Shown piece by piece: positions 206 through 61,026 of a DNA stretch of 64,000 nucleotides (position 1 is its first letter; every line of letters begins with the position of its first letter). The notes below the pieces were generated by a model that was given only the letters and a program-made list of their open reading frames with translations, did no database searches and was not told the origin of the DNA. Location of the stretch: contig JBBHKE010001215.1 in assembly GCA_037447655.1 (NCBI GenBank), forward strand, positions 33,821 through 97,820. Reading direction: 5' to 3'. Made by a program: the position numbers and the translations under genes. This DNA comes from Zygnema cylindricum. Taxonomy: Eukaryota > Streptophyta > Zygnematophyceae > Zygnematales > Zygnemataceae.

Positions 206-713
206 GAGAATTGTGACGACAAATAAAAACTGTATTCTCACCGATAAAAGTTTAAGTAAAGGACACAAAAAACTTAAAAAGCTTGTAGATGATGTGCCTG
301 GAGTGCTATTTTCCTTTGCAGAAACATCTTCCTCTTCAATCTTTCTACCAACCACCATAAATGGCGACAGTTTTCTGGATAATCTGGTAAAATTAGGGTA
401 CAAATTATTCTGAAAGTTATCTCTCTTAACCACTCTCTCCTCTCTCCCTCTCCTTCTAGTCCCTCCCCATGTTTTATTGCCTTGGAATTTTGGAAGAGTG
501 AGGGAAGACCCACATTTCGTAAACATTGAATAGCCATGGCTAGGAGAAAGTGCGACAGGAGACGGTGAAAGGGAGTGGAATGCCATAGCTTAAAGAGGTG
601 AATCAAAAAGTGCGATTCGTTTCGTGCGCAAAATATTGAATGTTTGAAAATGACGTACGGTGATTCGCACTTGACTCACACGATTTTTGCCGATTTCAAA
701 AATGATGTTGGTA
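206..713. other. Unclassified AT-rich sequence, no gene seen
   Basis: Only short open frames without recognisable domains or codon structure occur here. A CT-rich patch lies at about 420-470. I see no repeat or transposon end until the hAT target site at 714. Confidence 0.5.
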
Positions 714-721
714 TGGTATAC

Positions 722-1410
722 CAGAGGTCGCAAATGGTCAACCGAAACCGTGACCGACCGTTATCCGACCGCCCGCGCCGGATCCGGAACGGAGTCGGTT
801 GCCAAATTTTGAGGGCCGGGCGGTTGCGGTCGGTTGATTCACCAGAAAAAAAATAACGGTCGGTTACGGTCGGTCAACCAAAAAACCAAAAAAATGAAAA
901 TTTTGTACTGTCCATACTATCCAACATTATTGTACTTTGTACTCTTTGGTATCGTGGAAATACGTGACATCACGATTAGCGCCGCAAACCTGACACGGTA
1001 GTACACTATTCATTTCGCAAATCTTAGGGAACGCGACAAAGCGTCGCAAATCTGACACGGTAGTACACTATTCATTTCGCAAATCATAGGGAACGCGACA
1101 TAGCGTCGCAAATCTGACACGTTAGTAAACACTATTCATTTCACAAATCTAATGGAATGCGAAAAATCGTAATTATTGGCTTATTCATACGTCGTACATT
1201 AGTTAATTTTGTACCTTTTCGGTTACGGGCGGGCACGGTTACTCGCGAGAAATCGAGTTTCGGTTATCTTTTATTTTCGTAAACGCTGGTCAGTTAACGC
1301 TTAACAATTTTGGAGCGTGACATAACCTCGTCGGGCGTCAGTTACTCAGATTTTGAAAAAAAAAAACCGTCGGTTTCGGTTATGTAAAATTTTGACTTTT
1401 ACGACCTCTG
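722..1410. mobile_element. Non-autonomous hAT-type element (MITE-like)
   Basis: The 689-bp element starts CAGAGGTCG and ends with its reverse complement CGACCTCTG. The inverted ends continue imperfectly inward through an ACCGAAACC-type segment. It is flanked by identical 8-bp direct repeats TGGTATAC at 714-721 and 1411-1418, the target-duplication length of hAT transposases. No transposase reading frame is present, so it would depend on an enzyme supplied elsewhere. The inside is rich in CGGTCGGTT-type motifs near both ends (about 740-880 and 1205-1380). The perfect target duplication suggests it is not ancient. Assignment to hAT is from end sequence and duplication length only. Confidence 0.88.
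983..1165. repeat. Three tandem copies of a ~61-63 bp unit inside the hAT element
   Basis: Units begin at 983, 1044 and 1107 with CGCAAAYCTGACACG and contain a TTCATTTCRCAAATC segment. The third copy has diverged slightly. Tandem subterminal units are common in hAT elements, where they can act as transposase-binding regions. That role is inferred here. Confidence 0.85.
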
Positions 1411-1418
1411 TGGTATAC

Positions 1419-1931
1419 GACATCTTCCCACGCTAAGTGGTCGCCTCACGATATCTTGCACTTTGTTTTAAGCGGTTGTTCAAATCGTATTTTTCCTTTT
1501 CCGATTGCTGTGATACTCAGTGGCCTGGATGAAAAATACCGTCATAGTTTGCATAGATTGTCTCGGCCAGTTTACTCGGAGATGTAAATCATGTTTTTGT
1601 GATTTTTCAAAGTCCGAGAATACCTAGAACTGGAAAATGAAAAAAGAGCGATTTGAATTAACAGGGTTATGAAGCATAGATGTTCAAGCCGTTAAGTATT
1701 AACGATTCAATCGCGACAAATTTTACGTAAGTAACGCATTGAACGATTTGAAAAAATTATTAAAATCGTTAGTGATTTTGTATCCATATTATTCTGTAGA
1801 TGTAAAAAATAATTCCGTACAATCATACAGAATTCAACTTACCGCGCGCAAATGGCGCAATACTTGAACGTCTCTTTTGGTAAAAGTCCGTACATTTTCG
1901 GTAAAATTCCGTACATTTTCCGTAAAATTTA
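1419..1931. other. Unclassified sequence between hAT element and C1
   Basis: No coding region or transposon end was recognised. A short repeated phrase around GGTAAAA(G/T)TCCGTACATTTTC occurs twice near 1879-1921. The start of the C1 LTR is uncertain, so some of this stretch could belong to it. Confidence 0.4.
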
Positions 1932-2494
1932 TGTTAAGTGAACCGAACAAAAAGTGTTAAGATTTCAATGTTTAAATGTAGTCCAGTTTTGTGTTCAGTT
2001 TGTTTATGTTAAATTAATGTTTAGTTGACGTCGACACTTATGTTTTTTCCAGGTACGTCCTGTTTAGTCTGAGTGTCGGTAAAGGTTCGTGACGTGGTAC
2101 TGTACAGTTGGTGAATTATTTAGTGCGTAGAACAGTGGTACGGTCTTAAGTCCAGCTCACGTTCAGTTTTGGCGCACTAATGTTTTATTAGGCGTTTCAG
2201 CGCCTAAGTGTCAAAAATCGTGAAAGTGGAGTCTGAGTGGAATTAGTGACAAAAGTAGTATGTAGTTTTGTCTTCTGGTGGTGTTGGGGAGAGAGTATTT
2301 TAGGAGTGAAGTATAGTTTTATATATAAGAAAAGAAGTGAAAACAAGAAAAAAAATGTAAAAAGTTCGATTAAATATACTTTCTATTTGGTCGATTTTTC
2401 TTCTATTTATGATTCTGAAATTATTCTGATGTCTGCCAATTTTTGTGAATGCTTCCGCTAAAGATGTATGCATAAAATGATCTTGATTTCAACA
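1932..2494 (+). mobile_element. Putative 5' LTR of copia element C1
   Basis: The right edge is set by the primer-binding site that follows at 2497. A TATA-like tatatataag lies at about 2319-2328, as expected for an LTR promoter. The left edge at TGTTAAG (1932) is a guess, because no 3' LTR copy exists in the window for comparison. It shares no obvious sequence with the other LTRs here. Confidence 0.45.
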
Positions 2495-2496
2495 AG

Positions 2497-2511
2497 TGGT
2501 ATCAGAGCTGG
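2497..2511 (+). promoter_or_regulatory. Primer-binding site of C1, initiator tRNA-Met 3' end
   Basis: TGGTATCAGAGCTGG matches the classical plant copia primer site, complementary to the 3' end of initiator tRNA-Met. It is the only site of this kind in the window. All the other elements use the anticodon arm of the same tRNA. Confidence 0.9.
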
Positions 2512-2589
2512 TAAAAGCTCCCAGCAGTAGAAAAGCTCCCAGTTGTGGAAACCACTGTTTTCATTATCAGTGTGGCAAGTGTTGCTGCA

Positions 2590-3922
2590 ATGGGAGGAAA
2601 TAAGATGAAAGCTGCAGCTCCGCAGCCCACACCTCTGATACTCCAGAGCCAAGTCACAAGGGCTTCAGTGCCGCCCAGTTTGAAGAAGAAAAAGACACGT
2701 TTCCAAGAGATGATTATGAACGAAAGAGCAGGGTGTTTCTAATAGAGAAGAGAATTTGCTAACTGGAGTTCTTCAGAGTATGCTAGCAGCTGCCCCTCAG
2801 GGGGCAGGCTGCAAATTGGCAACAATGATGGTTATTATGAAATTGAAGAAGAGAGGAGAGAGAATTCGAAAGGGGAAATTCGCAGCAGAAGATGAGTTTT
2901 ATTTGGAGGAGGACAGTGATAAGGAAGAATTGATTCAGATGCCCGGCAAAGTCGTTCTCTTCAATGGAACGAATTCCTATATTTGGAAGCGATATATTAA
3001 AGGACAGCTAGAACTTCGGCATCTTTGGAAAATTGTTACTGGAGAGGAGACCATACCAATTTCTGATCGAAAGGCTAGAAATAGATGGAAACGAAAGAAT
3101 GTCGCGGCCTATACTGGCCTTATGCAAACTTGTACGCCCGTTGTTCATGATTATTTTCTGACGCATGATTCTGTTAATAAATGTTGGTGGGCTATCGAGA
3201 ATGAATTTGAAAAAGGAAATCAAAATCGCGGCCAACATGCATATACCGAATTTCTTAATTTTGAGATGAATCTGAATGAATGGATAGGAGATGCTTCAAA
3301 ACGTTTCAATATTATTGTGGAAAGACTTGCGGCTACAAGTCGGTTTGTCATTGAGGCGGATAAAGTTACTGGCTTTCTAAATGCTTTGCCGGATAGGCTT
3401 GTCCATCTCAAATAAATTTTGAGTGTGAAAAAGAGGTTAACTTACGAGTTTGTATTATCCTATTTAAAAGATAACGAAGATAATCGAGTGAGTTCTTCTC
3501 GGAGAACTCCTTCTTCCGGTACTCTAAACGCCACCGTTCCAAATTCAGGCGATCTATTTTCTTTGCGTGGTGGCGGAAGAGGAGGAGGAAGGGGTGGAGG
3601 CCCACGAGGTAGAGGAAAGGGACAAGCAAAAGGAGAAAATCAAAAACCATTTTCTGCCGCTCCCGGTCTGAACTCTGTTGCATGCTTTCAATGCAACAAG
3701 CTCGGACATATGGCGGCATCATGTCTGGATAAGGAGCGACAATGTTATTATTGCGGCAAATGGGGGCATGTGAGTCCTCAATGTTACGCAAAATCGGAGT
3801 CCGAAAGAGGAGGTGGTAGAGGAGGAGCTAATGTTGGCCGAGGCGGTTCTAATAGTGGCCGTCGTGGTGGCCGATTCGGCGGCCGAGGTGGAGGACGTCT
3901 TGGTGGTCGTGGAGGTGGTTGA
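2590..3922 (+). pseudogene. C1 gag (capsid and nucleocapsid), broken
   Basis: Retrotransposon Gag would form the cytoplasmic particle. The best frame starts near 2756 and runs through a capsid-type region. A single TAA stop at 3413-3415 interrupts it before the same frame continues to 3922. The second half carries two CCHC zinc knuckles, at 3683-3724 (CFQCNKLGHMAASC) and 3743-3784 (CYYCGKWGHVSPQC). These sit among GGRGG-rich segments typical of RNA-binding tails. The N-terminus is split over two frames between about 2590 and 2760. A TGA at 3920 replaces Trp in the glycine-rich tail, after which the frame continues toward the protease. Two knuckles plus RGG boxes differ from the single-knuckle Gag of the other elements here. 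Confidence 0.82.
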
Positions 3923-9721: not shown

Positions 9722-10733
9722 TGCAATCCCGTGTCCTCCATTGGACTACAGAATTTAAGAAGCCTCTAGATAGTTTTTAACTAACCCACTTTAAGCCACA
9801 ACCATTGCTACCCAAGAAGGCAAACCAATAGTCTGACTGCACCCTTGTGCAGCTTGAACTCCCTTGAGTCCACAGCAAAAAGATTGTTTTTCAATGAAAA
9901 CGGCCAACCAGCCGATAACTTATGAGCCGGCAAAATTGCCAATTTTATATTAAGCTCTCTAAGAGAGAGGTGTCTATCTACCAATTTTCCTAAGTCCTAA
10001 ACCCCTTTCACAACCCCTATCTACTGAAGTACGAACCAGTTATACAACTGTAAAGTACAGAAAGGTACTACGGCTGATGTACTTTCTATACGGCCTATGT
10101 ACGACAAGGTCACTAAGTGGACGTGTGTCACTATTCCACTCGTTAGTATGCTCCCTGAAACTCCTACAACCCAATGTTATCCCTCCAGGTGGCCCCAGGT
10201 CATGCCCCGTCCATAATCGCCAAAGTGAACCATTCCGCGATCTCGGCAGTGATGGACGCCGTCAGATTAAATCCGACATTAAATGTTGACCGTTTAAAAC
10301 AAATGTCGGATTCATTTGTTTCGTGCGAAATGAGGTCCACATTGAAACTTTGACTAATTCCATGTTCCTTTGTTCATATTTCAGTCAATCAGTTTCAGGA
10401 TCATGTACATGTTTAAATATATATCACACCCCATGTAATTTAATGAACTTCTGCGACAGACTAGATAGAGCTAACGGCTACGCCGTACGCTACCGGTCAG
10501 AGATTCGAGTCCTACAAGACTTAATCTTTTGTTGAGAGTGACATAAGTCACTTTTTAGTTTTGCCTGCTGAACTAAGGTAGCCTTGGCTCAACCACCGTC
10601 TCTATCCTTTGGTGACTATAACAAGTATGGTGGCTAGAGAGAGGAGGTGGAGGCAAGCTGTCTGCATTTTTTTTTATATTTTACTGATCTATTTAGACCT
10701 AGAAAATACCCTATAAATCTAGTAATTTCAACA
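9722..10733 (-). mobile_element. 5' LTR of C2
   Basis: The 1,012-bp LTR starts TGTTGAAATTACTAG on the minus strand at 10733 and ends ATTGCA at 9722. It matches the LTR start of C13. The plus strand shows the tRNA-like module at about 10445-10520 (A-box-like GACTAGATAGAGC, B-box-like GATTCGAGTCC). On the minus strand there are stem-loops GGACTCAAGGGAGTTC and CTGCACAAGGGTGCAG (plus positions about 9838-9875). The gag ATG lies about 20 nt before the LTR end. Confidence 0.88.
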
Positions 10734-11534
10734 ACTGCTAGAACGGAATCTTCATGCATTGAACCCACTGTTCTTTATATAACGTACGAAATGAATGATA
10801 TGAACCTTTATTTCGATGGTCTGTATCAAAGTCGATCTAATCGGACGGCTGTGATAATCCCTAGCATCGTAGAAAGCACATTTTGGTGGTTTTAGGATGT
10901 TGCCACTTCGGATGACACGTGGCATCATTGTACGGGTTTGCGGAATCTCCTGAGCCCAAGAGAACAAGTTCGAATGTGACAAATGTCACCGGTATCAACA
11001 TGCCTACAAATGCTGTACACAAAGTACTCCAGCACGTGTACTTTCATGTATGGTACAGTCCTTTGATTGGCTCCGTACTTCATTAATAGGGGTTTTAGAG
11101 AGGGAATAAGACTTAGCATTTTTTGGTAGGTAGCCGCTTCTCTTTGAGAGCACCCTTATATAAAAAAGCTAGCTTTGAGCAACCATAACTAATGATTTAA
11201 TTAACTACTTTCAGTGATTTTTTTGGCTGCGAACTGAGGGGAGTCTACACTACACAGCGTTGTAGTCGGTTAGAGTCTATGTCTGCGAGGGTGGTGGTAT
11301 TTCTAAGGGAAATTCAAAGTGGGAAATGTTATCAAAAACTCATATTCTAACTTTGCATTCTGATGTGGAACTTAGCACACATAATGTTTTATTTCACAAG
11401 GGTGAAGCTCTTTTGCGATTCTGCCTGTCAAGGTGTCAGTCATTTGGGTTTGTATCAACTTAAAGTCGGCACCATCTAGTTAAGCTTCTTTGGATCTGCG
11501 AATTCTGTGGGGGAATGGACCCCCTAAAGGTTCA
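10734..11534 (+). mobile_element. LTR fragment of C3, left part missing
   Basis: This matches the right two thirds of the C9 LTR at 28913-30111. It starts abruptly after the C2 LTR at a CTGCTAGAAC segment. A TATA-like tatataaaaaa lies at 11157, and stem-loops follow at 11231-11245 and 11250-11265 (CTACACAGCGTTGTAG). It ends TTCA before a degenerate primer site. C2 therefore probably inserted into this LTR. Confidence 0.82.
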
Positions 11535-11549
11535 CCTTATGGGCCTACC
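11535..11549 (+). promoter_or_regulatory. Degenerate half-tRNA primer site of C3
   Basis: CCTTATGGGCCTACC, 12 of 15 matches to the clade consensus GGTTATGGGCCCACC, directly after the LTR end TTCA. Confidence 0.7.
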
Positions 11550-11954
11550 ATCTAGGGTGCCTATGTTTGATGGAACATACTTCACATTCTAAGAATTTAC
11601 GATGGAGGGATTTCTTATTCGAAAAGCACTTATGGGGAACTGTTTTCAGGACAAATGAGGTGTACGCCACCTGGTTTTGGTGGAACTCACTATGGAGAAT
11701 CACATGGGGCCTCCTAAAAAACCAACCAAAATTTAGATTTAACGGAAGGTGAAGGTAAAACCATTGCCATGGAATAGGGAAAAAGGGAGAAGAGAAAAAG
11801 AACACCTATGGTGAGGGGAGCTTGGCTCTCGACTACGGTTCCACTTGTAGGGGTTATAGGTAAAACACAAACTGAAGAAAATAACAGTAAAATTTGAGAG
11901 TATAAAAACACTATAGCAAAACATCTCATACTTAGAAACGTGTCTAAGTCCAGG
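11550..11954 (+). pseudogene. C3 gag fragment
   Basis: Translations show LPSRVPMFDGTYF, then EFTMEG, interrupted by stops and shifts. The sequence aligns over its whole length to the C9 gag start at 30127-30396 plus 36876-37010. It stops at about 11954, where another LTR begins. Confidence 0.75.
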
Positions 11955-12776
11955 TTGAAAAGAAGTAATTAATATTCACTTTTTCATTTAGAATCTAGAG
12001 TGAAGAGAGAGAGAGTCACCATGGCTGCAACCATAGTCAAAATAAAATAGGCAGACATGCACATAGATTGATAGATTATCAAAATGTTGGCCGTATCAGA
12101 TTTTAACCTAGGTTTGGAAAGTTATATGTAGACATAAGCCTTATCCAATATGGCATTGACGAAACGATACTGATATATTGTTCGGTATTTAATTAAAGTG
12201 GTACGCAAACGTCGCTTTCACTGAAATAGACCAAAATTGACAAAACAACATATATATCAAACGGCGCTCGCGGACGCGAATATAACTGTGTAAAATACAT
12301 GATCGGACGGACGTCGTCGCCCTTGCCAAACCCGAATGAATTTTTGGCGTCTTTCGAACATAGCAGCGCGCTGTGCCATGTGGCGCCACAACAATGGACG
12401 CCAAAAAGGATGGGAGGAGGAACGATGGCTCCCATCTTGACAAATGTCAACCAGAAGAACATGTTGTACTATGGCCGTACAAGAAGTACAATCAGCCACT
12501 GTAATTTCTTGTACTATACTCCCTTTTCTCCAAGTGACAGTTTATATTTGTAGACCATCTTTGGCCAACCATAACTTACTACTCAGGGGAAAAAATTTAG
12601 TGATTCTTTTTGCGTTTCAATTAAAGAAGTCTTCTCCTCATACAGGTGAAGGTGGTTATTTTTTTTTTGTGATTGGGCAGCAGTTATTTAGTGGGAAAGT
12701 GAAAGGGGCAAATATTATCGTAGAGGCTTTACATAGGCCGCTCATTTTGTGGGTTAATGAAGACCACATAATTTGA
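11955..12776 (+). mobile_element. 5' LTR of C4
   Basis: The LTR starts near a TTGAAAAGAAGTAATTAA segment that resembles the LTR start at 28913, and ends TTGA at 12776. It contains a tctcaccatgg-type early region, a G-box-like gccatgtggcgcc near 12376, a GTAC-containing palindrome near 12475-12515, and the conserved TGATTCTTTTTGCG tract near 12600. It is shorter (about 820 bp) than its relatives. The left boundary is approximate. Confidence 0.72.
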
Positions 12777-12961: not shown

Positions 12962-13144
12962 GTACGTGTCCACTAGACACTTTCCATCTCCATATACAAA
13001 CAGGAAAGACCATTACAATAAATAACATCTTTCCTCCTTTGTAAGTGTAACTCACTAGCTTTTGCTCAGCTTACTAGAGCTTCTGAATAGTACCAGCTTT
13101 ATAGATCTCCACCAATCTCACCCACAACTCCTCGGCCTTGTAAG
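12962..13144 (-). pseudogene. C5 gag fragment, left of C6
   Basis: The minus strand encodes the capsid region around TYKGGKMLFIV and AEELW...VEIYKAGTIQ, matching C6 gag 14560-14745. The right edge at 13144 is the C6 insertion site. The fragment continues at 19565. The left edge is a truncation against C4. Confidence 0.85.
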
Positions 13145-13344
13145 TGTTGAAATTCATAGATTTCAATAGTATTTTCTGAGTTTAATATGTTAGGAAAAGA
13201 AAAGGACAGACAACCTGCCTCCACCTCCTCTCTCTAGTTCCCATACTTGTTGTCGTCACTTAAGGATAGAGAGGGTGGTTGATCCATGGCTGCCTTAGTT
13301 CAATAGGCAGTTATTTTTAGTAGGTTACTAAAAATAGTACTTAC

Positions 13345-13425
13345 GGACCTGGGATTTGAACCCGGTACCTTTAGTTCGTCAAGTTGGCCGATAGCGGTCA
13401 ACTTTATCCTACTAGACTACGACCA
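13345..13425 (-). other. Antisense tRNA-like module in C6 5' LTR
   Basis: On the minus strand an A-box-like TAGTCTAGTAGGAT (plus 13406-13419) is followed about 50 nt later by a B-box-like GGTTCAAATCC. The latter sits in a T-arm-shaped stem-loop with a 7-nt TTCAAAT loop. The acceptor stem does not pair, so it is not a working tRNA gene. Equivalent modules occur in the other non-satellite LTRs in the window. Confidence 0.75.
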
Positions 13426-13796
13426 ATGCTAAATGCTATAGAGTGTGATAGATATATATATATATTTAGAGTGTAAGAAATCCATTTAACTAAAACTAGA
13501 TACGGCGTGCATAGATACAATTTTAGTACGACATCATTTCAGAATGAATACCTCGCATTTGTTCGGCAGCGAAACAAATATCTCGCAAATAATTATAACG
13601 GCTACGATTACGTCTCATTACGAACCCGGCGGCGCACGTCATCGCCGAAATCCCGGAGTGGTCACCTTGGCGTTTTGTGACGTGGCATGACCTGGAGCCA
13701 CGTGGAGAGATGACATTCCGTCATAGGAATTCCGAGGAATGTACGGACAAGTAAAAAGCAGACACGCGTCCACTTAATAGCCTTGTCCTACATAAG

Positions 13797-13837
13797 CCGT
13801 ACAAAAGGTACACCGGCAGTAGTACCTTTTGGTACGG
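13797..13837. promoter_or_regulatory. U3 GTAC palindrome of C6 5' LTR
   Basis: CCGTACAAAAGGTAC, a 10-nt spacer, then its near-perfect complement GTACCTTTTGGTACGG. Each arm holds two GTAC cores. CGTACAA is the known core of plant SBP/SPL-factor sites. Regulation by such factors is inference. Confidence 0.7.
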
Positions 13838-14011
13838 TACAGTAATTTGATTGGTCCGTACTTCAGTAGATAGAAGTTATTAGAAGGAATCAGGACTTAT
13901 AAAATTTTGGTAGGTAGTCACCTCTCCCTTTGAGAGTTTGTACAAATTGGCATTTTCAGTGCCTCATAACTTATCGGCTAGTTGGCCGTTTTCAGTGATT
14001 CTTTTTGCTAC

Positions 14012-14046
14012 GGACTCAGGGGAGTCCACGCTGCACAGGGGTGCAG
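14012..14046 (+). promoter_or_regulatory. Tandem RNA stem-loops in C6 5' LTR
   Basis: GGACTCAGGGGAGTCC (14012-14027) and CTGCACAGGGGTGCAG (14031-14046) each form a 6-bp stem with a purine-rich loop. They would lie in the transcript leader just upstream of the gag ATG. Their stems change in a compensated way in the other LTRs. Confidence 0.8.
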
Positions 14047-14141
14047 TCAAATTGTTAGTTTGCATTCTGTGGCAGAAGTGGTCGTGGCTTAAAGTGGGTT
14101 AGTTAAATACTATCTAGAGGCTTCCTGTATTCTATAGTCCA

Positions 14142-15202
14142 ATGGAGTACACAAAATTGCAGGTTATGGGCCCACCCTCTAGGGTGCCCACCTTCAATGG
14201 ATCTGTGTTCATCTTTTGGGAAGCCATGATGATGGGAACTTTGTGTGAAAAACGATACTGGGGTATCGTCAGTGGACAAGTGAAACGTCCACCTTCGGGA
14301 ACTCCACCAGGATTTGGGGGAGTAAGGTTTTCTGCAACAACGGCTGCCTCAGCGGAGGAGGCAGATGATAAGGACAGTAGTGTGTCCGAAAACGAGAAAG
14401 GGAAGGAGACACCCCTCACTCCTATTGCCACTATATCGGGAGCGGCGACCATGAAGACCGTGGAGAACAATACTCAAATGTCGGAGGATGTAAATATGGC
14501 TGCCAAGAACTTCATTCTGAGGCACCTCACTCAAGGTTTGGCCACTCCTCATCTTCACATTTACAAGGCCGAGGAGTTGTGGGAGAGTTTGGTGGAGATT
14601 TATAGAGCTGGAACTATTCAGGAGCTCCAGTTGGCTGAGCAAACTCTATTGAGTTACACTTACAAAGGAGGAAAGATGTTAGATTATTGTAATGATCTTT
14701 CTTGTTTGTATATGGAAATGGAAAGTGCCGGGTGGACAGGTACAATGAAAATGAAAGTTAACACCCTTATCATGAAATTACCACATGAGTTCAAAAACAT
14801 TGTGTACCGAGTACAGGGAATGCTTGATAGTTCATGGAAATGGAACACAATAGTCAGGATGATACTTGTGCAGGAAAACACAATGGAGATTAGGAGAGGA
14901 GGAAAGAGCATTCAAGCTCTAGCAGCAGGAGGGGACCAATGGGGGAAGGACCCGAAGAAACCTTATAGAGGGGAAAAAGATCATTCTGGGGGACAGAGGC
15001 CCCCAAAGGGTCTTTGTCATTATTGCAAAAAACTGGGACATTTTATTGCAGATTGTGTCAAGCTATCAGAGCTGAGGCTCCAAGAGAACCGTGGAGGTGG
15101 TTCTTCCGGAGGGAAGAAAAAGGCACTTGTGGTTACAAAAGTGTCAGGAGAAACCGAGGATGAGTCCTCTGAGGAGGATGGGGAGCTTTTTCTTGACGAG
15201 AG
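14142..15202 (+). pseudogene. C6 gag (capsid and nucleocapsid)
   Basis: The start ATG at 14142 lies in the LTR. The first residues MEYTKL are LTR-encoded and QVMGPPS is encoded by the primer site. There follow VPTFNG, a GTPPGFGG linker, a capsid region with FILRHLTQGLATPHLHIYKAEELW and YTYKGGKMLDYCNDL, and one CCHC knuckle (CHYCKKLGHFIADC, about 15018-15059). An acidic tail follows. The gag frame stays open to 15338. However, relative to C2 a single base is missing near 15204, so the true continuation into protease is in another frame. No conserved slippery site is seen there, which suggests a mutation rather than programmed shifting. Confidence 0.92.
14162..14176 (+). promoter_or_regulatory. 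Half-tRNA primer-binding site of C6
   Basis: GGTTATGGGCCCACC directly abuts the LTR end. It is complementary to the anticodon arm (ending in the anticodon loop) of plant initiator tRNA-Met, and not to the tRNA 3' end. Drosophila copia has a closely similar GGTTATGGGCCCA site and uses a half-tRNA primer. The same 15 nt are translated within gag. Confidence 0.92.
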
Positions 15203-16417
15203 ATGGAGGAGAAAGAGATCCCTCGGAGGCAGAAGTGTGCCCTTGGAGCAAGTCGGGAAGCTCCACAGGAAGGATGGATCATCGACTCAGGTGCATCCAT
15301 GCATATGTGTCGTGATAAAAAACTCTTCACTAAGCTAAGAAAAATTCCTACTGTAGAGATAGAGTATTGGGATGGGAGAGTGGTTACTACAGATCTAGTG
15401 GGATCAGTAGATCTGAAAGTCTTAGTGGAGGGTAAGACTTCTATACTTACATTCTCAGATGAACTTTACATTCCTAAGCTGAGTAAAAATCTTGTCTCTA
15501 CGTCTGTGTTAGATGACAAAGTGTTTGATACCTTCACCAGAAAGGGAGTCTTTACAGCTAAGTATGGGAATGAAGTTTACTTCACAGCAGATAAGGGTAG
15601 CCAAGGAATGTTTAGGCTTAACCTGAGTAATGAAAAGAAGAATGCTTACTATGTTGGTGTTCCTAAGGTGATGATTTGGCATAAGCGGTTGGGGCATGTG
15701 CATTTTGATAGGTTGAGGGAAATGAAAAAGCTTGGGGTAGTAGATGGCATTCAGTTTGAGGATAATGAAATGATGGATGATATTAGTGGTTGTGCTCAAG
15801 GTAAGGCTCACAGACTTCCCTTTCCCAAAGCCGCCACATATAGAGGTGAGAAAGTGTTAGATTTGGTCCACACAGATATTTGGGGACCCGCAAAATTACC
15901 TTCGGTTGGAGGAAAGTGGTTTATGATGACAATAAATGATGACTGGTCTAGATACTCTAGAGTCTATTTTATGAAAACAAAGTCTGAAGCATCAACTTAC
16001 TTCAAAGAATATAAAGCTTGGAGTGAGAAGTTGCATGAAACCCCCATTAAGAGGATAAGGAGTGATAATGGGGGGGAATATACCTCTAACGAGTTTGAGG
16101 AATATCTGAGAGATGAGGGAGTGCAGCACCAGAAAACTTTACCATATAACCCGGAACAAAATGGGGTAGCTGAGAGGTTGAATCGAACACTAAGAGATAG
16201 TGTACGCAGTATGTTGGCAGACAAGAAAATAGGAAAAAGATTTTGGGCAGAAGCAATGAACTGTGCCAACTACATTAAGAATAGAGTCCTTACCTCAGCT
16301 GTAAAGGGAGTGACACCTTATGAGAGATTGGTTGGAAGGAAACCAGATATCTCACACCTTAAAGTATTTGGTAGCCAAGTTTATAGTCTTGACACAGATG
16401 GGAAAACTGGAAACTAG
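15203..16417 (+). pseudogene. C6 protease and integrase
   Basis: The open frame covers the aspartic protease (GWIIDSGAS, Asp codon 15284), which cuts Gag-Pol, and the integrase, which joins cDNA to host DNA. The pre-integrase zinc region has WHKRLGH but ISGC instead of CSGC, losing one Cys. The integrase triad is present: Asp at 15875 (HTDIWG), Asp at 16064 (RSDNGGEY) and Glu at 16172 (NGVAERL), a D-35-E spacing. A one-base deletion near 16400 shifts the frame and ends the protein early at TGN, where relatives continue NWKLDAKG. Confidence 0.93.
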
Positions 16418-16923
16418 ATGCTAAGGGAAATCTTGGATACTTTGTGGGATATGATGAGGATGTTAAGGGATAAAGAGTCTATGACTTACCAAAGAAAGAT
16501 ATCATTCTGGTCAAACACTTAGTTGTCATGGATGAACGGAAGTCATTTGACCCCTTCAAATATACAAAGAAGATAAGGATCAGATTTGAGTCCGAAAGTG
16601 ATGAGAATTCGCTCATTCCCGAAAAGGACATGAGTGAAATTGTGAGTACAGATTTAGGGGAGATCGAAGATACAGGAGAATCACCTGAAACCTCACATAC
16701 TCCTATGGACTTCGAGGAGATAGAAGAAGCGGGACAAGAACCGTTTTCCATGGACAGGGGAGCCGATGAGACAGTGAGAAGAAATCCAAGACTTCCATCC
16801 ATTCCAGCTTCAGAGTTTGAGGGAGGAAGGAGGAGCAGCAAAAAGATACAGGAAAAACAAGCTGCCCATAAGGTAACTAAGCTATCTCACCCAGATGAGC
16901 CTCAGTCTTACTTAGAGGCATGA
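16418..16923 (+). pseudogene. C6 integrase C-terminus and linker
   Basis: After the frameshift the protein continues in another frame: DIILVKHLVVMDE, FDPFKYTKKIRIRFES, an acidic stretch, then RRNPRLPSIPASEFEGG and KLSHPDEPQSY. A TAA near 16471 and a TGA at 16921 interrupt it. The segment links integrase to RT and is rich in Glu and Ser. Confidence 0.85.
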
Positions 16924-18487
16924 ATAGTCCAGAGAAAGAAAGATGTATTAGAGCCATAAATGATGAGATGGCTTCTATCATGGAAGCAAATACTTGGGAA
17001 CTAGCGGATTGCCCTCCAGACAGAAAAACCTGTTGGATGTAAATGGGTATTTAAACTAAAACTGAACCCAGATAATACAATTGAGAGGTATAAGGCTCGA
17101 TTGGTAGCGAAGGGGTTCACCCAAAAAGAGGGGATTGACTATGAGGAGACCTTTGCTCTAGTTGTTCGGTTCCCATTGGTAAGGATTCTCCTCAATCTGG
17201 CCGCAGCGGAAGACATGGAAATACACCAGATGGACATTAAGACTGCTTTCTTAATGGTGAGTTAGAGGAATTAATTTTTATGAGGCAACCCGAGGGGTTT
17301 GTGGAAAAAGGAGAAGAGAGCAAAGTCTTCAGGGTCATAAAGTCCTTATTTGGACATAAACAGGCTCTCGACAGTTGAATAAGAAACTAGATGAGTTTCT
17401 CACCGATCTGGGAAACATCCGGATTAGCTCTGACCATTCTATCTATATGTTTAAAGATGAGAATGGTGTCATTTTTATTGCAATTTATGTGGATGATCTG
17501 CTTGTGTTAAGTAAGTCTTTGGAGAATATCAATAGGCTAAAGAAAGATCTTAGGGGCAGATTTGATATGAAGGATTTAGTAGAGGCAAAATATATTTTGG
17601 GGATCCAAATGGAGAGAGATAGGGGGAAGAAGATTATCACACTTACTCAGAAAGAAACAATAGGTAATATGCTTGAGAAATTCCAGATGGAAAATGATAA
17701 CCGTTGTACCACTCCCATGGACTTGAAAAAAATAAGTGATGGGAGTGTAGAAGGAGGAGTGATGATCTTAGATGATCAGATGAGTCTAGAGGAGAGAGAG
17801 TTTATGAAGTCTATCCCTTATAGACAGGTCGTACGAAGTTTAATTTATTTTATGAACTGTACCAGGCCGGACATATCGGCAGCAGTTGGAGTACTCAGTC
17901 GGAGTCTTAATGATCCTAGGAAAAGAGACTGGGAGGCAGCCAAGAGAGTCATGAGATATCTGGTTGGAACCAGAGAATTATGGTTGCATTTGGGAGGGGA
18001 GCACACTGATATCACCACTTGGAGTGATGCCAGTTATGGGGATGCACCTATGAGTAGATGCACTTCTGGATATGTTTTGTATGTGGGGGAAGGAGCTTGT
18101 TGTTGGAGCAGTAAGCAACAAAAGGTGGTTGCTCAGTCTACTGTGGAGGCTGAGTATATGGCGTCTTGTTCTGCTGTAAAAGAACCAATGTGGGTGAAGT
18201 CATTGTTGCAAGAACTGGGATATATCAAGGAAGGTGTGCATGAAATCTTTTGCGATAATCAAGCTGCAATCGCAATCGCAGCCAATCCAATACACCGTTT
18301 CAAATCAAAACATATGGACATAAGATTAAGCTTCGTAAGAGAAAAAGTTGAAAATAAAATTTTAAATCTTGTGTATAGACCTGATGAAGAAATGGTGGCA
18401 GACATGATGACCAAACCTATGCCCTCTCCTAAATTAAAATATTGTCGTGAGAAATGCGGATTGAAAGAAAAATTAAAATTAGACTAG
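16924..18487 (+). pseudogene. C6 reverse transcriptase and RNase H
   Basis: The N-terminal RT part (to 17374) has frameshifts near 17030, 17250 and 17365 but shows the WVFKLKLNPDNTIERYKARLVAKGF region. From 17375 a 370-codon open frame holds the catalytic YVDD (17486-17497), the LGIQMERDRG motif, and RNase H with WSDASYGD (Asp codon 18026), VEAEYMA and CDNQAAIAIA. This frame ends normally just before the polypurine tract. RT copies element RNA into cDNA and RNase H removes the RNA strand. The intact C-terminal half contrasts with the broken N-terminal half. Confidence 0.93.
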
Positions 18488-18500
18488 AAAATAAGGGGAG
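18487..18500 (+). promoter_or_regulatory. Polypurine tract of C6
   Basis: GAAAATAAGGGGAG directly precedes the TG of the 3' LTR. It is the plus-strand primer for reverse transcription. The same AAGGGGAG-type tract precedes the 3' LTRs of C7 and C13. Confidence 0.9.
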
Positions 18501-19564
18501 TGTTGAAATTCATAGATTTCTATAGTATTTTCTAGGTTTAATATGTTAGGAAAAGAAAAGGATAGACAGCCTGCCTCCACCTCCTCTCTCTAGCCCCCAT
18601 ACTTGTTGTAGTCACTGAAGAATAGAGAGGGTGGTTGATCCATGGCTGCCTTAGTTCAACAGGCAGTTATTTTTAGTAGGTTACTAAAAATAGTACTGAC
18701 GGACCCGGGATTTGAACCCGGTACCTTCAGTTCGTCAAGTTGGCCGATAGCGGTCAACTTTATCCTACTAGACTACGACCAAAGCTAAATGCTATAGAGT
18801 GTGAAAGATATATATATATTTAGAGTGTAAGAAATCCATTTAACTAAAACTAGATACGGCGTGCATAGATACAGTTTTAGTACGACATCATTTCAGAATG
18901 AATACCTCGCATTTGTTCGACAGCGAAACAAATATCTCGCAAGTAATTATAACGGCTACGATTATGTCTCATTACGAATTCGACGGCGCACGTCATCGCT
19001 GAAATCCCGGAGTGGTCACCTCGGCGTTTTGTGACGTGGCATGACCTGGAGCCACGTGGAGAGATGACATTCGGTCATAGGAATTCCGAGGAATATACGG
19101 ACAAGTAAAAAGCAGACACGCGTCCACTTAATAGCCTTGTCGTACATAGGCCGTACAAAAGGTAGACACGCGTCCACTTAATAGCTTTGTCGTACATAGG
19201 CCGTACAAAAGGTAAACCGGCAGTAGTACCTTTTGGTACGGTACAGTAATTTGATTGGTCCGTACTTCAGTAGATAGAAGTTATTAGAAGGAATCAGGAC
19301 TTATAAAATTTTGGTAGGTAGTCACCTCTCCCTTTGAGAGTTTGTACAAATTGGCATTTTCAGTGCCTCATAACTTATCGGCTGGTTGGCCGTTTTCAGT
19401 GATTCTTTTTGCTACGGACTCAGGGGAGTCCACGCTGCACAGGGTGCAGTCAAATTGTCAGTTTGCATTCTGAGGCAGAAGTGGTCGTGGCTTAAAGTGG
19501 GTTAGTTAAATACTATCTAGAGGCTTCTTGTATTTTGTAGTCCAATGGAGGACATATAATTGTA
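18501..19564 (+). mobile_element. 3' LTR of C6
   Basis: The 1,064-bp copy of the 13145-14161 LTR ends TTGTA instead of TTGCA. It has the early stem (18577-18592 with 18623-18634), the antisense tRNA-like module (18700-18781, with a perfect CCGGG/CCCGG T-stem) and stem-loops at 19416-19431 and 19435-19449. It is longer than the 5' LTR mainly because of a 50-bp duplication. Its LTR-encoded gag start reads ATG GAG GAC ATA TAA, a stop at codon 5 that the 5' LTR lacks. Confidence 0.94.
19114..19213 (+). repeat. 50-bp tandem duplication in C6 3' LTR
   Basis: Units 19114-19163 and 19164-19213 begin AGACACGCGTCCACTTAATA and differ by one C/T. The 5' LTR has one copy. The duplication adds an extra CCGTACAAAAGG arm, so this LTR has three GTAC-palindrome arms. 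Confidence 0.92.
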
Positions 19565-19951
19565 GTAAGTGTGAAGGTAAGGGGTGGCCAAAGCTTGAGT
19601 GAGGTGCCTTTGAATGAAGTGCTTGGTAGCCATGTGTACGTCTTCCCATATTTGAGTATCGTTCTCCACGGTCTTTACGGCCGTCGATCCCGGTGCAGTA
19701 ACTATAGGATTGAGGGGTGTCTCCTTCCCTTTCCCCTTTTCGGACACACTGCTGTCCCCATCATGACCTCCTCCGTTGAAGCAGTGTCTGCTGCAGGAAA
19801 AACAACTCCTCCAAATCAAGGTGGAGTTTGGGAAGGTGGACGTTTCACTTGTTCACTTACGATACCCTAGTATCGTTTTTTGATCAAAGCCCCCATCATC
19901 ATGGCTTCCTAATAGATGAACCCAGATCCATTGAAGGTGGGCACCCTGGAG
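19565..19951 (-). pseudogene. C5 gag fragment, right of C6
   Basis: The minus strand continues C5 gag upstream of the C6 insertion: FIQRHLTQALATPYLHTY, MWEDVHMATKH-like, SEKGKGKETP and the PPNFGG-like linker, back to the primer site. The N-terminal region is frame-damaged. It is very similar to C2 gag. Confidence 0.86.
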
Positions 19952-23503: not shown

Positions 23504-24680
23504 TGTTGAAAATTAAGTATTTTATAGGTCTAGAGATTGTAAAATAAAAGCCAAAACAATGACAGCTCGACTCTAACTCTTCACTCAATTCCCCACACTT
23601 GTCGTAATCACTAAAGACTTGAAGAGGAGTTAGATCCATGGCTGCGTAGGCTGTCAAAAGAGGACAGGAAGGAAAATCTCGATAGAGTTACCTAAAATAT
23701 ATGACGACCCGGAATTTGATCCGGGTACCAGCCGTCCGTCAAATTAGCCGGTAGCCTTAACCTGTAATTGTGGGACTAGTATTACGATATATAAGGTTTG
23801 ATAAATACATAAATTGTTACACGTAGATTAATTCGTTTAACGGAGAATAGATACTTAGTGTATAGATACAATTTTATGTAGTACGGAGTACGGTATGGGG
23901 ACGGAACGGATACCGCGCATTTGTTTCGATAGCGAAACAAATACCGCCTGTCAAATTTCAGCGGCTATGATTATAGCCGGTTTTGATCGGACGGCCGCGA
24001 TAGGCGCCGCGATCACGGAAGAGGTACTTTTGGCGTTTTACATCTTTCCCACGTCAGATGACACGTGGCGTGATAACATTGGATTACGGGAACTCTGGAG
24101 ATTACAGGAACAAATCCTTATTTAACACGTGTCAACATTCTGGCCATGTTGTACAATGGCCGTACATAAAGTACATCGGCACCTGTACTTTTCTGTATGA
24201 CACAGTAATTTGATTGGTGCCGTACTTCGGTAGATAGAGTTTTAGAGTGGGAATATGACTTAGAAAATTTTGGGTAGGTAGCTGCCTCTCCCAGAGAGCA
24301 CCTTGTATAAAGGGCAAACTTTGGCGAGCCATAACAATCATTTTACTTGACCATTTTCAATGATTCTTTTTGCTGCGGACTCAAGGGAGTCCAAGCTACA
24401 CAGAAATGTAGTCGGTTAGAGTTTTTTCCTACCAAGGTGGCTGCATTTCTAAAGGAAATTCAAAGTGTGTGATTGTGTCCAAAACTCATATTCTAACTCT
24501 GCATTCTGTGGTGGAACTGAACACACAGAAAGTCTTATTTAACATGGGTGAAGCTATAATGGGTTTGTGATTGTCAAGGGGTCAGTCATTTGGTTTTATA
24601 TCAACTTGGAGTCAACACTATCTAGGTAAGCTTCTTTTGGATCTGCGATTTCTGTGGGCAATAGAGCACAATGAGTTTCA
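23504..24680 (+). mobile_element. Solo LTR S2 inside C8 5' LTR
   Basis: The 1,177-bp LTR runs from TGTTGAAAATTAAG to GAGTTTCA. Flanks are TGGTG (23499-23503) and TGTTG (24681-24685), one mismatch from a 5-bp duplication; the intact C8 3' LTR shows a single GTGGTG at this place. It carries the antisense tRNA-like module (about 23705-23790), an ACACGTGGC G-box near 24061, a GTAC palindrome near 24150-24200, a TATA-like gtataa near 24305, and stem-loops at 24377-24392 and 24396-24411 (CTACACAGAAATGTAG). Confidence 0.93.
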
Positions 24681-28912: not shown

Positions 28913-30111
28913 TGTTAAAAATAAGTAATTAATACTCACTTCTTAATTTAGACTCTAAGGTGAAGAGAGAAAGAGAGTCACCATGGATGCCGCCATAGTC
29001 AGAAAGAAAGAGGCAGACAGGCAGATAGATTGATAAATTACCAAAATGTTGCCCTTAACCAAATTTGAACCTGGGAGCAAAGTACTATGCAGAAAACGCC
29101 TTAACCATTATGGGGTTAACGAAACCAAAGAGACAGCAAAGATGCAAATACTAGTCTCTCTCAAAAAGATGGTTGTACGAACCAGGAATTGAACTTGGTA
29201 CCTACCGTCCGTCAAAGAGGCCAGTAGGCGTTAGCTTTATCCTATAGTCTAGAACTAATGCTGAACTATATAAGGTATGATAGATATTTAAATGCATACA
29301 CGCCAAAGATTCCATTTACATGCTAGAACAGAATCTTCATGTATAGAACCCATTGTACTTTATATATCGTTCGAAATGAATGATATAGATATTTATTTCA
29401 ACGGTCCGTATCAAAGTCGATCTAATCGGACGGCCGTGATAATCCTCGGTATCACGAAAACGACATTTGGCGGTTTTAAGACGCGGGCACTTCGGATGAC
29501 AAGTGGCAACATTGTAGGGGTTTGCGGAATCTTCAGAGCGCAAGAGAACAAGTTCAAATGTGACAGATGTCACCGATATAGACATGCCGTGCAAATGTTG
29601 TACAGAAAGTACTCAGGCACCTGTATTTTCATGTACGGTACAGTCGTATGATTGGCTCCGTACTTCAGTAGAAGGGGTTTTAGAGAGGGAATATGACTTA
29701 GCATTTTTTGGTAGGTAGCTGCCTCTCTCTTAGAGCACCCTTATATAAAAAGGCTAACTTTAAGGAGCCATAAGTAATGATTTAATTGACTATTTTCAGT
29801 GATTCTTTTTGTTGCGGACTTAGGGAAGTCTACGCTGCGTAAGGGTGTAGTAGATCAGAGTTTATATCTACGGGGGTGGTGGCATTTCAAATGGAAAATC
29901 AAAGTGGGAAATGTTATCCAAAACTTATATTCTAACTTTGCATTCCTAGGTGGAATTCAGAAAGTCTTATTTCACAAGGGTGAAGCTCTACTGGGATTTT
30001 GCCTGTCAGGGTGTTAGTCATTTGGGTTTTTATCAACTTGAAGTCGGCAATATCAACATAATCTTCTTTGGATTTACGAATTCTGTGGAAGAATGACCAC
30101 ATAGAGTTTTA
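28913..30111 (+). mobile_element. LTR shared by C7 (3' end) and C9 (5' end)
   Basis: The 1,199-bp LTR runs from TGTTAAAAATAAG to AGTTTTA. A polypurine tract precedes it, as for a 3' LTR, and a primer site plus gag follow, as for a 5' LTR. It therefore joins two elements head to tail. It has the antisense tRNA-like module (29180-29265), a GTAC palindrome near 29600-29645, TATA-like tatataaaa (29742-29750) and stem-loops at 29816-29830 and 29835-29850. Confidence 0.88.
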
Positions 30112-30126
30112 GGTCATAGGCCCACC
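30112..30126 (+). promoter_or_regulatory. Half-tRNA primer-binding site of C9
   Basis: GGTCATAGGCCCACC, 13 of 15 matches to the clade consensus, directly after the LTR. Confidence 0.82.
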
Positions 30127-30396: not shown

Positions 30397-31451
30397 TGAA
30401 ATCTTGAGACCTTCATAAGTCCTCAGAGTGGACAGCTTCCAAGAAGCCTCTAAGATAACTTTGACCCCTTTGTGTTTCAGCAAAAACAAATGCCACCCTA
30501 GCAGACAATAACTCTCACAACCTTCACCTCTATGAAAGCAAGACTCCCCTGAGTCGATAGCAAAAAGAATCTCTGAATTTGCTCCCCTGAGCAGTAAGTT
30601 ATGGAGGGTCAAAGTCGACCTTTTGTACAGAAGCTCTCTGGGAGAGAGGGTCCTATCTCCTAATTTTTCTAAGTCCTATCTCTCTCACAGACTCTATCTA
30701 TTGATGTACGGAGCCAATCAAATTACAGTTCCGTACACAAAAGTACAGCTGCTGGTGTACTTTCTGTACAGACACAATACGACATGGCCTAAATGTCGAC
30801 ACGTGGTATATCTGGATTCGCTCCCTTAATCCTCGGAGATGCCGCGATCCAATGTCATTCCGCCACGTGTCATCCGATGTGGTGATGACCACAAACCGCC
30901 GAAATCCTCTTCCGCCATCTCGTTCTGAATTCCGGCCGTCCGATTAAATTCACATTTAATCCTAGCCGTTATAAATACATGCGCGGTATTCGTTTCATTA
31001 AAGAAATAAATGCGCGGTATTGGTTTCTTATCCGTACCGTAATCCGTTTTTTTACATTACTCAATTTATGTATCCTGTAAACAGTTACAGTTAAATGAAT
31101 TATCTTACCTGATAATGTTTAATAAAATATTAAACCGTATAGTACGTAACACTAGTTCTAGATTTAATGGTTAAAGCTACCGGCTACCGGCTGCCTGCCG
31201 TCTGGTAGGTACCAGGATCAAATCCTGTGGCCGACACTTATCTTTTAGTAAATAAACCCCTAACTAATATATATTTCTCGTAAACCTCTGGATATCCTAG
31301 GTAGCCATGGCTCTAGCTCCCTCTCCAATTTCTAAGTGACTACGACAAGTTTGAGAGTTGGAGAGAGAAGTTGGAGGTAGACTGCCTCGCCTTCTTTCTA
31401 TATTTCTATTTAGACCTAGAAAATACTTTAAATGGACCATTAATTTCTACA
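30397..31451 (-). mobile_element. 3' LTR of C10
   Basis: The 1,055-bp LTR runs from TGTAGAAATTAATGG to GATTTCA on the minus strand. Plus-strand positions: stem-loops at 30521-30538, 30542-30555 (GACTCCCCTGAGTC) and 30580-30593 (TGCTCCCCTGAGCA), a GTAC palindrome near 30733-30775, G-box gccacgtgtcatc near 30862, and the tRNA-like module at about 31155-31235. The element carries three tandem stem-loops rather than two. Confidence 0.93.
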
Positions 31452-35822: not shown

Positions 35823-36870
35823 AAGTCCTCAGAGTGGACACCTTCCAAGAAGCCTCTAGGATAACCCTGACCCCTTTGTGTTTCAGCAAAAACAATTGCC
35901 AACTTGGAAGACAATAACTCTGACCAACTTCACCCGTGTGAAGGCAAGACTCCCCTGAGTAGATAGCAAAAAGAATCTGTGAATTTGCTCCCCTGAGCAG
36001 TAAGTTATGGAGGGTCAAAGTTGACCTTTTGTACCGAAGCTCTCTAGGAGAGAGGGTCCTATCTAATTTTCTAATCTCCTAATTTTTCTAAGTCTTATCT
36101 CTCTCACAGACTCTATCTACTGATGTACGGAGCCAATCAGATTACAGTTCCGTACACAAAAGCACAGCTGCCATTGTACTTTATGTACGTACAATGTACG
36201 ACATGGCCTAAATGTCGACACATGGTATGTCCGAATTCGCTCCCTTAATCCTCGGAGATGCCGCGATCTAATGTCATTCTGCCACGTGTCATCCGATGTG
36301 GCGATGACCATAAGCCGCCGAAATCCTCTTCCGCGATCTCGGTCTTAATTCCGGCCGTCCGATTAAATTTACATTTAATCGTAGCCATTATAAATACATG
36401 CGCGTTATTTGTTTCATTAAAGAAATAAATGCGCGGTATTGGTTTGATATCTGTACCGTAATCCGTACTTTTACATTACTAGATCTATGTATCGCGTAAA
36501 CTGTTACAGTTAAATGAATTATCCTACTTGATAATGTTTAATTAAATATCAAACCATATAGTACGTAACACTAGTTTTAGACTTAATGGCTAAGGCTACC
36601 GGCTACCGGCTGTCTGCCGTCCGGTAGGTACCAAGATCAAATCCTGTGGCTAGCACTTACCTTTTAGTAAATAAACCCCTAACTAATATATATTTCTATT
36701 AAACCTCTGGATAGCCTAGGTAGCCATGGCTCTAGCTCCCTCTCCAATTTCTCAGTGATTGCGACAAGTTTGAGAGTTGGAGAGAGAAGTTAGAGGTAGA
36801 CTGCCTCGGCTTCTTTCTATATTTCTATTTAGACCTAGAAAATACTTTAAATGGACCATTTATTTCTACA
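35803..36870 (-). mobile_element. 5' LTR of C10
   Basis: 1,068 bp, TGTAGAAATAAATGG to GTTTCA on the minus strand. Stem-loops at plus 35928-35943 (CTTCACCCGTGTGAAG), 35948-35960 and 35986-35999. The first differs from the 3' LTR copy on both sides of the stem yet still pairs. The tRNA-like module lies at 36572-36653 and the early hairpin at about 36729-36790. Confidence 0.94.
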
Positions 36871-60161: not shown

Positions 60162-61026
60162 TTTAATTCTGTGGCCTCCATTGGCCCACGGAATTTCCAG
60201 CCTATATGAAGCCTCTAGGATAATATTTGACTTTAACACCAAATATTAAGCACAGGCTCAAGCAAGAGTTGTGACTAGCTTCGCCCCTCGTCAAGGCCCA
60301 ACTTTTTTGAGTTAGACGCAAAAAGAATTTTTGCATTTGCTCCCTTGAACAGTTAGTTATGCTTGGCCAAAGATGGTCTATAAATACAGAAGCCCTCACA
60401 GAGAGAGGCGGCTACCTCTAAAATTCCTTAGTCCTATACCCCTCTTTAAACCCCCTTCTACTGACCTACAGCACCAATCACAAGATTGCATAGTATAGAA
60501 AAATAGAAGTGCCGGAGTACTTTGTGTACGGCCATTCTATGACATGACCAAAAAGGTGACGCTTGTAACTTCCACACTCGTTGAGATGCGTCTTCGAGAT
60601 TTCGGAAGTCAATGAGATGCTGCCATGTGTCATGTAGTGTGATGGTGACCACAAACCGCCAAAATGACCATTCGAAGATGTCCTCTTGCTCCATGGACAT
60701 ATGATTGGACATCGACTTTTGATACAAGCCGTTGAAACAAATGTCAGTATAATTTGTTTCGTTGGGTACATTCCATTGAACTAAATCTATTTTCCTATGT
60801 TTGTTCCCCTAGTTAGATAAAATCACCTACATGTACATGTTTAAATACATATCACACCCAATATATCTTGGTCTTAGCCTATATGACAAAGCTATCGGCT
60901 ACTGGCAACTTTGACGAACGGTAGGTACTAGGATCAAATCGTGGTTACGGCAGCCACCTTTTGGTAAGGGGGGTTGTTTTTGGTGTTTGTCTCCTATACA
61001 CCACTGGCAGCCATGGGTGTGGCTCA
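60162..61026 (-). mobile_element. 5' LTR of C15, interrupted by C17
   Basis: Aligns with the C15 3' LTR from its end up to about 56400 in that copy, then is cut by C17 at 61027. tRNA-like module at about 60877-60950. The missing LTR start should lie beyond C17, outside the window. GCTCA at 61022-61026 is the expected left half of the C17 target duplication. Confidence 0.88.

Follow-up and report, generated by a model that had tools for sequence, protein, structure and literature searches.

What is the short tRNA-like sequence that lies, on the strand opposite to that of the element, in the long terminal repeats (LTRs) of Copia retrotransposons in the genome of Zygnema cylindricum (352.8 Mb in 2689 contigs)? 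Is it a small transcription unit of its own, a relic of a tRNA gene, or a part of the LTR whose likeness to a tRNA gene is incidental? The window analyzed here, which is the whole stretch of 64,000 nt (C912:33821-97820, where C912 is the contig), contains nested Copia elements. One of them carries the module named in the first-pass annotation of this DNA (18700-18781). The features of this element and of its module are as follows.

13145-19564, + strand: Copia element of ~6.4 kb with two LTRs and a target site duplication (TSD)
13145-14161, + strand: 5' LTR of this element
14162-14176, + strand: primer binding site (PBS) of the half-tRNA type, matching the anticodon arm of initiator tRNA-Met
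18501-19564, + strand: 3' LTR of this element
18686-18791, - strand: tRNA-like module, 106 nt, in U3 of the 3' LTR
18807-18822, - strand: AT-rich block upstream of the antisense unit; variable within family 1
18764-18775, - strand: box A-like sequence, TAGTCTAGTAGG, matching 8 of 8 informative positions of TRGYNNARNNGG
18708-18718, - strand: box B, GGTTCAAATCC, matching 10 of 10 positions of GGTTCRANTCC
18705-18721, - strand: T-arm-like hairpin with a perfect 5-bp stem and a 7-nt loop, at positions 47-63 of the Rfam tRNA model
18686-18690, - strand: T5 run, putative Pol III terminator, 17 nt past box B; invariant in 31 elements of family 1

The TSD of the element 13145-19564 is 5 bp long (GTAAG, at 13140-13144 and 19565-19569), and the two LTRs, ~1 kb in length, are ~91% identical. 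The element encodes gag, integrase, and reverse transcriptase (RT) domains. Since these domains are spread over separate ORFs, this copy may not be intact. In database protein searches, the best match of RT/RNase H was 38% identical and that of integrase 65% identical over 61% of the query. No viral contig matched the window. The PBS is complementary to half of the initiator tRNA-Met, as in the half-tRNA-Met group of Copia elements. An 11-nt form of the PBS motif, TTATGGGCCCA, is found at six exact sites in the window and at five more with one mismatch, most of them beside LTR ends. With up to two mismatches it is found 16 times in the window against 14 expected, which is the chance level. A Pol II TATA-like box exists near 19302 in the 3' LTR. 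The module, ~510 nt upstream of this box, is therefore in U3.

The two internal motifs of a tRNA-type promoter have the consensus TRGYNNARNNGG (box A) and GGTTCRANTCC (box B), and the module at 18686-18791 agrees with both. The Rfam tRNA model (RF00005) recognizes no more than the T-arm of this module, with 12.2 bits (the gathering score is 29). This T-arm presumably resembles that of initiator tRNA-Met. It had been described as a general property of the modules, with a 5-bp stem and a 7-nt loop. The arm is perfect at 18700-18781, but the stem is complete in only 4 of the 14 copies listed at that time.

All 14 of those places do have a box A/box B module opposite to the element strand. A covariance model built from these copies recovers 14 of 14, as it must by construction, and in addition a strong new copy at 47290-47385. 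Among the weak matches of the model (E 0.19-1.7), those at 12079, 44663, and 29041 were accepted after inspection, and the one at 55268-55337 on the - strand (E 1.7) was dropped, as it overlaps a known module on the other strand. The window thus has 18 modules (14 listed earlier, one strong and new, and three weak). Besides the module at 18686-18791, they are:

10437-10532, + strand: module in the LTR of a - strand element
12079-12173, - strand: weak module (E 0.19) in a divergent LTR with a PBS at 12779; box B GGTTAAAATCT, T4 13 nt past box B
13332-13435, - strand: module in the 5' LTR of the element 13145-19564
23692-23788, - strand: module
29041-29132, - strand: second, tandem module (E 0.95) in a chimeric LTR that starts at 28913; box B GGTTCAAATTT, T4 14 nt past box B
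29165-29267, - strand: module
31143-31245, + strand: module of a - strand element
36562-36664, + strand: module in the other LTR of the element that carries the 31143 module
39397-39498, + strand: module; - strand element by LTR alignment
40055-40157, - strand: module; + strand element by LTR alignment
44663-44758, - strand: weak, decayed module without T4 (E 0.22), with a PBS at 45423
47290-47385, - strand: module absent from the first-pass annotation (E 1.6e-11), outside the training set of the model
53634-53729, - strand: module of the family 3 type; the commonest genomic box B of the family is GGTTCGAGTCC, and the window copy is degenerate
55210-55312, + strand: module; - strand element by LTR alignment
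56284-56386, + strand: module of a - strand element
59799-59901, + strand: module of the family 2 type, used for the genome-wide test
60860-60961, + strand: module of a - strand element

Every one of the 18 is antisense to its element. In 15 of them the direction of the element is given by pol genes or the PBS, and in the other three (39397, 40055, and 55210) by the direction of the LTR alignment. A search of 60 kb from six other contigs with the model found two further modules, L097 and L102, neither of them in the training set. Both exist in LTRs related to the window elements and are antisense by the direction of those matches; T4 follows box B after 15 nt in L097 and after 14 nt in L102, and box B of L102 is GGTTCGAGTCC. 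In 27 loci around host tRNA genes, the same search gave a single weak match (L009, E 0.96).

It had also been claimed that the module is present in every LTR other than those of satellite elements. This holds for all 14 listed LTRs but not for LTRs that have lost U3. For example, a - strand element is inserted at 10733/10734 in U3 of a + strand LTR, close to the expected start of the module, and the remnant 10734-11536 (in the region 10733-11536) lacks U3 and the module with it. The satellite element itself (61027-64000) is a Copia-type element that is gag-only: it has one ORF at 61579-62868 with a Retrotran_gag_2 domain and a half-tRNA-Met PBS motif at 61607. Its LTR sequence is 99.6% identical over the 466 bp that lie inside the window. 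The covariance model has no match in the LTR of this element, and its protein has no relative in the protein database at E 0.001.

How far do these modules stand out from the LTRs around them? An outside scoring rule (textbook box A, box B, and T4) was applied to LTR pieces of ~900 nt. In 16 of 17 LTRs the best antisense site coincides with the module. The antisense strand also has the higher optimum of the two strands in 16 of the 17, with one tie; these LTR counts are not independent because of shared descent. Taken singly, only 6 of 17 copies score above shuffles at p <0.05, with p values from <0.01 (13332 and 18688) to 0.70 (47290). By the points of this rule the module-free satellite LTR reaches 14-15 and the modules reach 15-20, so that the weaker modules score like the satellite. 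The scoring box A lies 7-17 nt off the aligned box A in 6 of 16 modules, and box A is degenerate in many of them. Allowing up to two mismatches, box B is about as frequent in the window as expected (25 found vs 23 expected).

What the modules have in common is an arrangement of parts. Box A and box B are found at the spacing of a tRNA gene and are followed by a run of at least four T, which is the layout of a type 2 Pol III unit, and an AT-rich block exists near -30. The T run and the AT-rich block are absent from the first-pass annotation, as is the tandem module at 29041. The first-pass suggestion of an antisense promoter of the tRNA type agrees with this layout. The parts, their order, spacing, and strand are the same in several divergent Copia families primed by half tRNA-Met, and the T run is nearly invariant. 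With somewhat better than even confidence, we read the module as a type 2 Pol III unit in antisense direction that ancestral LTRs captured on one or a few occasions and that has been kept since.

A tRNA ends 11 nt past box B. In 17 of the 18 window modules a T4+ run starts 13-17 nt past box B (the exception is the decayed module at 44663), that is, 2-6 nt beyond the expected tRNA end. The run is therefore where a Pol III terminator belongs. T4+ is found at 10% of the other LTR positions. The distance from box B to the run varies among families, but the run itself is kept, and families 1, 2, and 3 each have T4 in 39 of 40 genomic copies. Runs of T4 inside the module occur in 4 of 20 modules vs 28% of control stretches; the idea that the modules are free of internal T4 runs was rejected, as the former is little below the latter. 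Upstream of the putative start, AT content (15 modules) is 0.89-0.93 at -35 to -26, compared with 0.52 at -45 to -41 and 0.55 at -20 to -16. It is also high at -60 to -56 (0.85) and at -15 to -11 (0.79).

The host's own tRNA genes (n = 48, L009-L058) have a strongly AT-rich zone between about -44 and -20. A T4 follows the gene within 25 nt in 22 of 48 cases vs 22% by chance. A near T4 may not be the rule for stopping Pol III in this host; since it is used by host tRNA genes but not universally, the terminator reading of the T run is tempered. Identical tRNA-Lys genes are found on several contigs. The host tRNA-Lys and tRNA-Trp genes are plant-like in appearance.

The strongest rival is that the module is a neutral relic. 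In this view, a tRNA gene or tRNA-derived SINE was incorporated into an ancestral LTR, and the likeness persists by LTR descent alone. We consider this unlikely, at somewhat above one chance in four. Conservation of the LTR as a whole is consistent with it, as the LTRs align along their full length. Across 15 LTRs, the identity of the module is 0.58-0.60, near the LTR mean, and parts of R/U5 reach 0.7. Two LTR mates are kept in this 15-row profile and were removed before the cross-family counts (13 of 15 rows kept); the mean identity of the 13-row alignment is 0.55. Among LTR windows of the 13 rows, the AT-rich block is at the 94th percentile, box B at the 84th, and box A at the 43rd. In the LTR alignment, the 11-column block with the highest conservation surrounds a TTTTT in R/U5 at 19400-19412, outside the module.

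Within families, the evidence on conservation is divided. Three module queries each gave at least 40 scored copies among 643-3421 first-look candidates, and 40 copies per family, window copies included, were used in the tests. Note that the genomic copies were picked by their similarity to the module, which biases the sample toward the module over its flanks. In family 1 (the 18688 type), nine likely LTR mates were dropped for the variant test only, leaving 31 of 40; no likely mates were dropped in family 2 (the 59799 type) or family 3 (the 53634 type). The first-pass annotation had proposed to measure the boxes against neutral decay, and in family 1 they are indeed depleted of variants: in 31 elements, boxes A and B have 5 variant types in 23 columns vs 57 in the 85 other columns of the module, and the remaining U3 has 616 in 712 columns. 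The difference between the boxes and the rest of the module gives p 0.0009 for variant types and 0.002 for divergence (MWU), and a window permutation gives 0.005-0.013 within the module and 0.016-0.029 within U3. The T5 columns have no variants at all in the 31 elements. The AT-rich block, on the other hand, is among the most variable stretches of this family (96th percentile of divergence).

Families 2 and 3 do not repeat this result. In family 2 the boxes do not differ significantly from the rest of the module (MWU p 0.23, permutation 0.57), and the divergence of box B (0.091) is higher than that of the rest (0.058). Its commonest box B sequences, GGATCAATTCT and GGATCAATTCC (11 of 40 copies each), are GGATC forms, and GGTTC is in none of the listed forms of this family. 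In family 3 the difference is again not significant (MWU p 0.15, permutation 0.16). The T4 columns are 0.6% divergent in each of these two families. The neutral relic is a real rival because the box tests of two of the three families are not significant, and 11 of 17 single copies with p >0.05 against shuffles point the same way. It fits less well with the depletion of variants in family 1 and with the textbook box B in 31 of 40 copies of family 1 (GGTTCAAATCC, its commonest form) and 22 of 40 copies of family 3 (GGTTCGAGTCC). It also has to account for a T run that is kept in 117 of 120 genomic copies despite its shifting distance from box B.

Another possibility is that the block serves Pol II regulation, as enhancer sites, or the sense RNA, as structure at the 3' end of the genomic RNA, and that its present use has nothing to do with its likeness to a tRNA gene. 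The location of the module, upstream of the Pol II TATA-like box by ~510 nt, is consistent with this rival. Signs of RNA structure were sought as well, since the first-pass annotation had put forward a structure in the 3' end of the genomic RNA as its second option. RNAalifold finds three pairs only on the modules (-0.36 kcal/mol), without any resemblance to a cloverleaf. In the T-stem, 81.8% of cells are paired, and this is matched by 45 of 500 shuffles, with a shuffled mean of 78.5%. A neighboring helix, an extension of 7 bp adjoining the T-arm, is paired in 60% of cells. Covariation of the T-arm together with this helix exceeds all 500 shuffles, but kinship among the sequences can be enough to pass this control even where no structure exists. 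Folding z of -2 or lower is reached by 6 of 15 copies in the antisense and 4 of 15 in the sense direction. RNAalifold, the counts on the T-stem and extended helix, and the folding of single copies are together insufficient for a conserved RNA structure, and the proposed role at the 3' end of the genomic RNA finds no support in the three pairs. Moreover, signals of the Pol III type exist on one strand, in the order and spacing of a tRNA gene. We regard a Pol II or sense RNA function of the block as improbable, about half as probable as a neutral relic.

Is the module a tRNA? The standard run of ARAGORN calls no tRNA genes in the window, and neither does Rfam at its cut-off. Permissive runs include 10 of 17 modules among 161 window matches and 13 of 17 among 257. 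No module has a recognized cloverleaf, as a functional tRNA gene would. A mascRNA-like fold gives a single Rfam match, at the module 18686-18791 (E 0.055). Compared with 11 host tRNA types, the modules reach z of up to 5.9 in the antisense comparison, and the sense strand reaches up to 3.5. Similarity to host tRNAs is higher on the antisense strand in 11 of 18 modules and lower in five, with two ties. A single donor tRNA was rejected, as no isotype wins among the 11 types and the sense strand itself reaches z 3.5. It is unlikely that the module is a functional tRNA or a conserved RNA element.

The weakest explanation, that the module is a landing pad that recruits TFIIIB and TFIIIC so that the Copia integrase steers new copies beside it, is highly improbable and was set aside for too few cases: Ty elements are known to target Pol III genes (in the available part of PMC5911963) and the nested insertion at 10733/10734 lies upstream of the expected module start in its host LTR, but only two placeable nested insertions are in module-bearing LTRs, one of them past the T run (61027), the other placeable ones are in internal regions or in the satellite LTR, and of 30 host tRNA loci (~3 kb each) 12 match parts of the window, an uncontrolled count in which L009, L014, and L033 clearly match Copia elements.

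How would an antisense Pol III unit work, if this reading is right? The U3 unit would descend from a tRNA gene or from the tRNA-derived head of a SINE, inserted antisense, and would consist, in this order, of the AT-rich block near -30, box A, box B, and the T4+ terminator. Box B would be bound by TFIIIC, and TFIIIB and Pol III would be recruited. The predicted product is an RNA of ~75-95 nt, antisense to U3, that ends at the T run. Such an RNA would stop short of the edge of the LTR, which, in the 3' LTR, is the end of the element's own pol gene. There are two options for what was kept. One is the act of Pol III transcription, or the factors it brings, which might hold chromatin open and, on the upstream side of the Pol II promoter, act as a boundary to silencing or read-through. 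The other is a plain antisense RNA, complementary to the U3 portion of the element mRNA. Because the fold of the RNA is not conserved, either of these is most likely what has been kept, rather than a tRNA-like RNA. Any benefit that the unit may bring to the element is inferred, as is its transcription.

Two observations weaken the antisense Pol III reading: in family 2, box B varies more than its surroundings, and the box A picked by the scoring rule often differs from the aligned one. It also counts against this reading that the best-matched LTR pair (99.6%), that of the gag-only element, is without a module. A broader proposal can be made, more tentatively and at a little less than even confidence: a large group of gag/pol-bearing Copia elements may have LTRs for two polymerases, with Pol II in the sense direction and a captured tRNA-type Pol III gene with its own terminator in the antisense direction. 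The latter would have been selected for transcription or the recruitment of factors and not for an RNA fold, and would be an inbuilt means of chromatin or antisense control for the element.

Pol III promoters in LTRs are not new in themselves. The first-pass annotation had named Cassandra as the closest parallel, which is a fair comparison, but Helenus (TRIMp3), with its tRNA-like LTRs, is closer, as far as the available part of PMC10886601 goes. According to this part of the paper (Kojima 2024, PMC10886601), Helenus has a tRNA-like sequence with boxes A and B in both LTRs; it is non-autonomous, 311-1263 bp in length, and its Pol III promoter is presumed to drive transcription of the element RNA. 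Fungal Helenus is associated with Copia and has a PBS for the anticodon loop, and most of these elements encode no functional tRNA (PMC10886601, same part). The modules of Zygnema share with Helenus the tRNA-like boxes A and B in the LTR, with box A often degenerate. They differ in that the element described here is not short and protein-less: it is ~6.4 kb long, has gag, integrase, and RT domains, and its LTR is ~1 kb. They also differ in direction. In the TRIMp3 model, by implication, the promoter makes the element RNA, whereas all 18 window modules, as well as L097 and L102, are antisense.

Cassandra, as described in the same part of PMC10886601, is a non-autonomous TRIM in which a 5S rRNA promoter in the LTR makes the element RNA. 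What the two cases would have in common is an LTR with a Pol III promoter taken from the gene of a small RNA; here it is instead tRNA-like, antisense, and in elements that bear gag and pol. Rfam 5S rRNA has no match in the window, either at the gathering threshold or up to E 10. Another comparison is with tRNA-derived SINEs (SINE2), which likewise have boxes A and B with a degenerate tRNA structure, but the module here travels inside an LTR. As for the host elements, the Osser, Bryco, and (in part) Gymco-II lineages of Copia are reported to be primed by half tRNA-Met (in the available part of PMC6317226). The element 13145-19564 resembles these lineages in its PBS, which matches the anticodon arm of tRNA-Met.

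It is argued in the available part of PMC10886601 that autonomous elements are unlikely to share the long LTR stretch of Pol III elements. The same part notes that "not a few" of the LTRs in Repbase are similar to a portion of a tRNA (PMC10886601), and given this remark, single tRNA-like cases in longer elements may already be known. An antisense tRNA-like unit in gag/pol-bearing LTR elements was not among the matches listed from the open-access literature. Pol III promoters have been described in short, non-autonomous LTR elements; the antisense placement in gag/pol-bearing elements would be the new feature here. If the antisense Pol III reading is true, regulation of a Pol II retrotransposon can include the recruitment of Pol III, through an antisense unit common to divergent Copia families that carry gag and pol genes. 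The modules also call for caution in tRNA annotation and small-RNA mapping, as a large source of tRNA-like loci.

One LTR of the window, at 28913-30113, carries two modules in tandem. Its first 212 bp (28914-29125) are 80% identical to 11954-12165, and the module at 29041-29132 is related to that at 12079-12173. This chimeric LTR suggests template switching between families.
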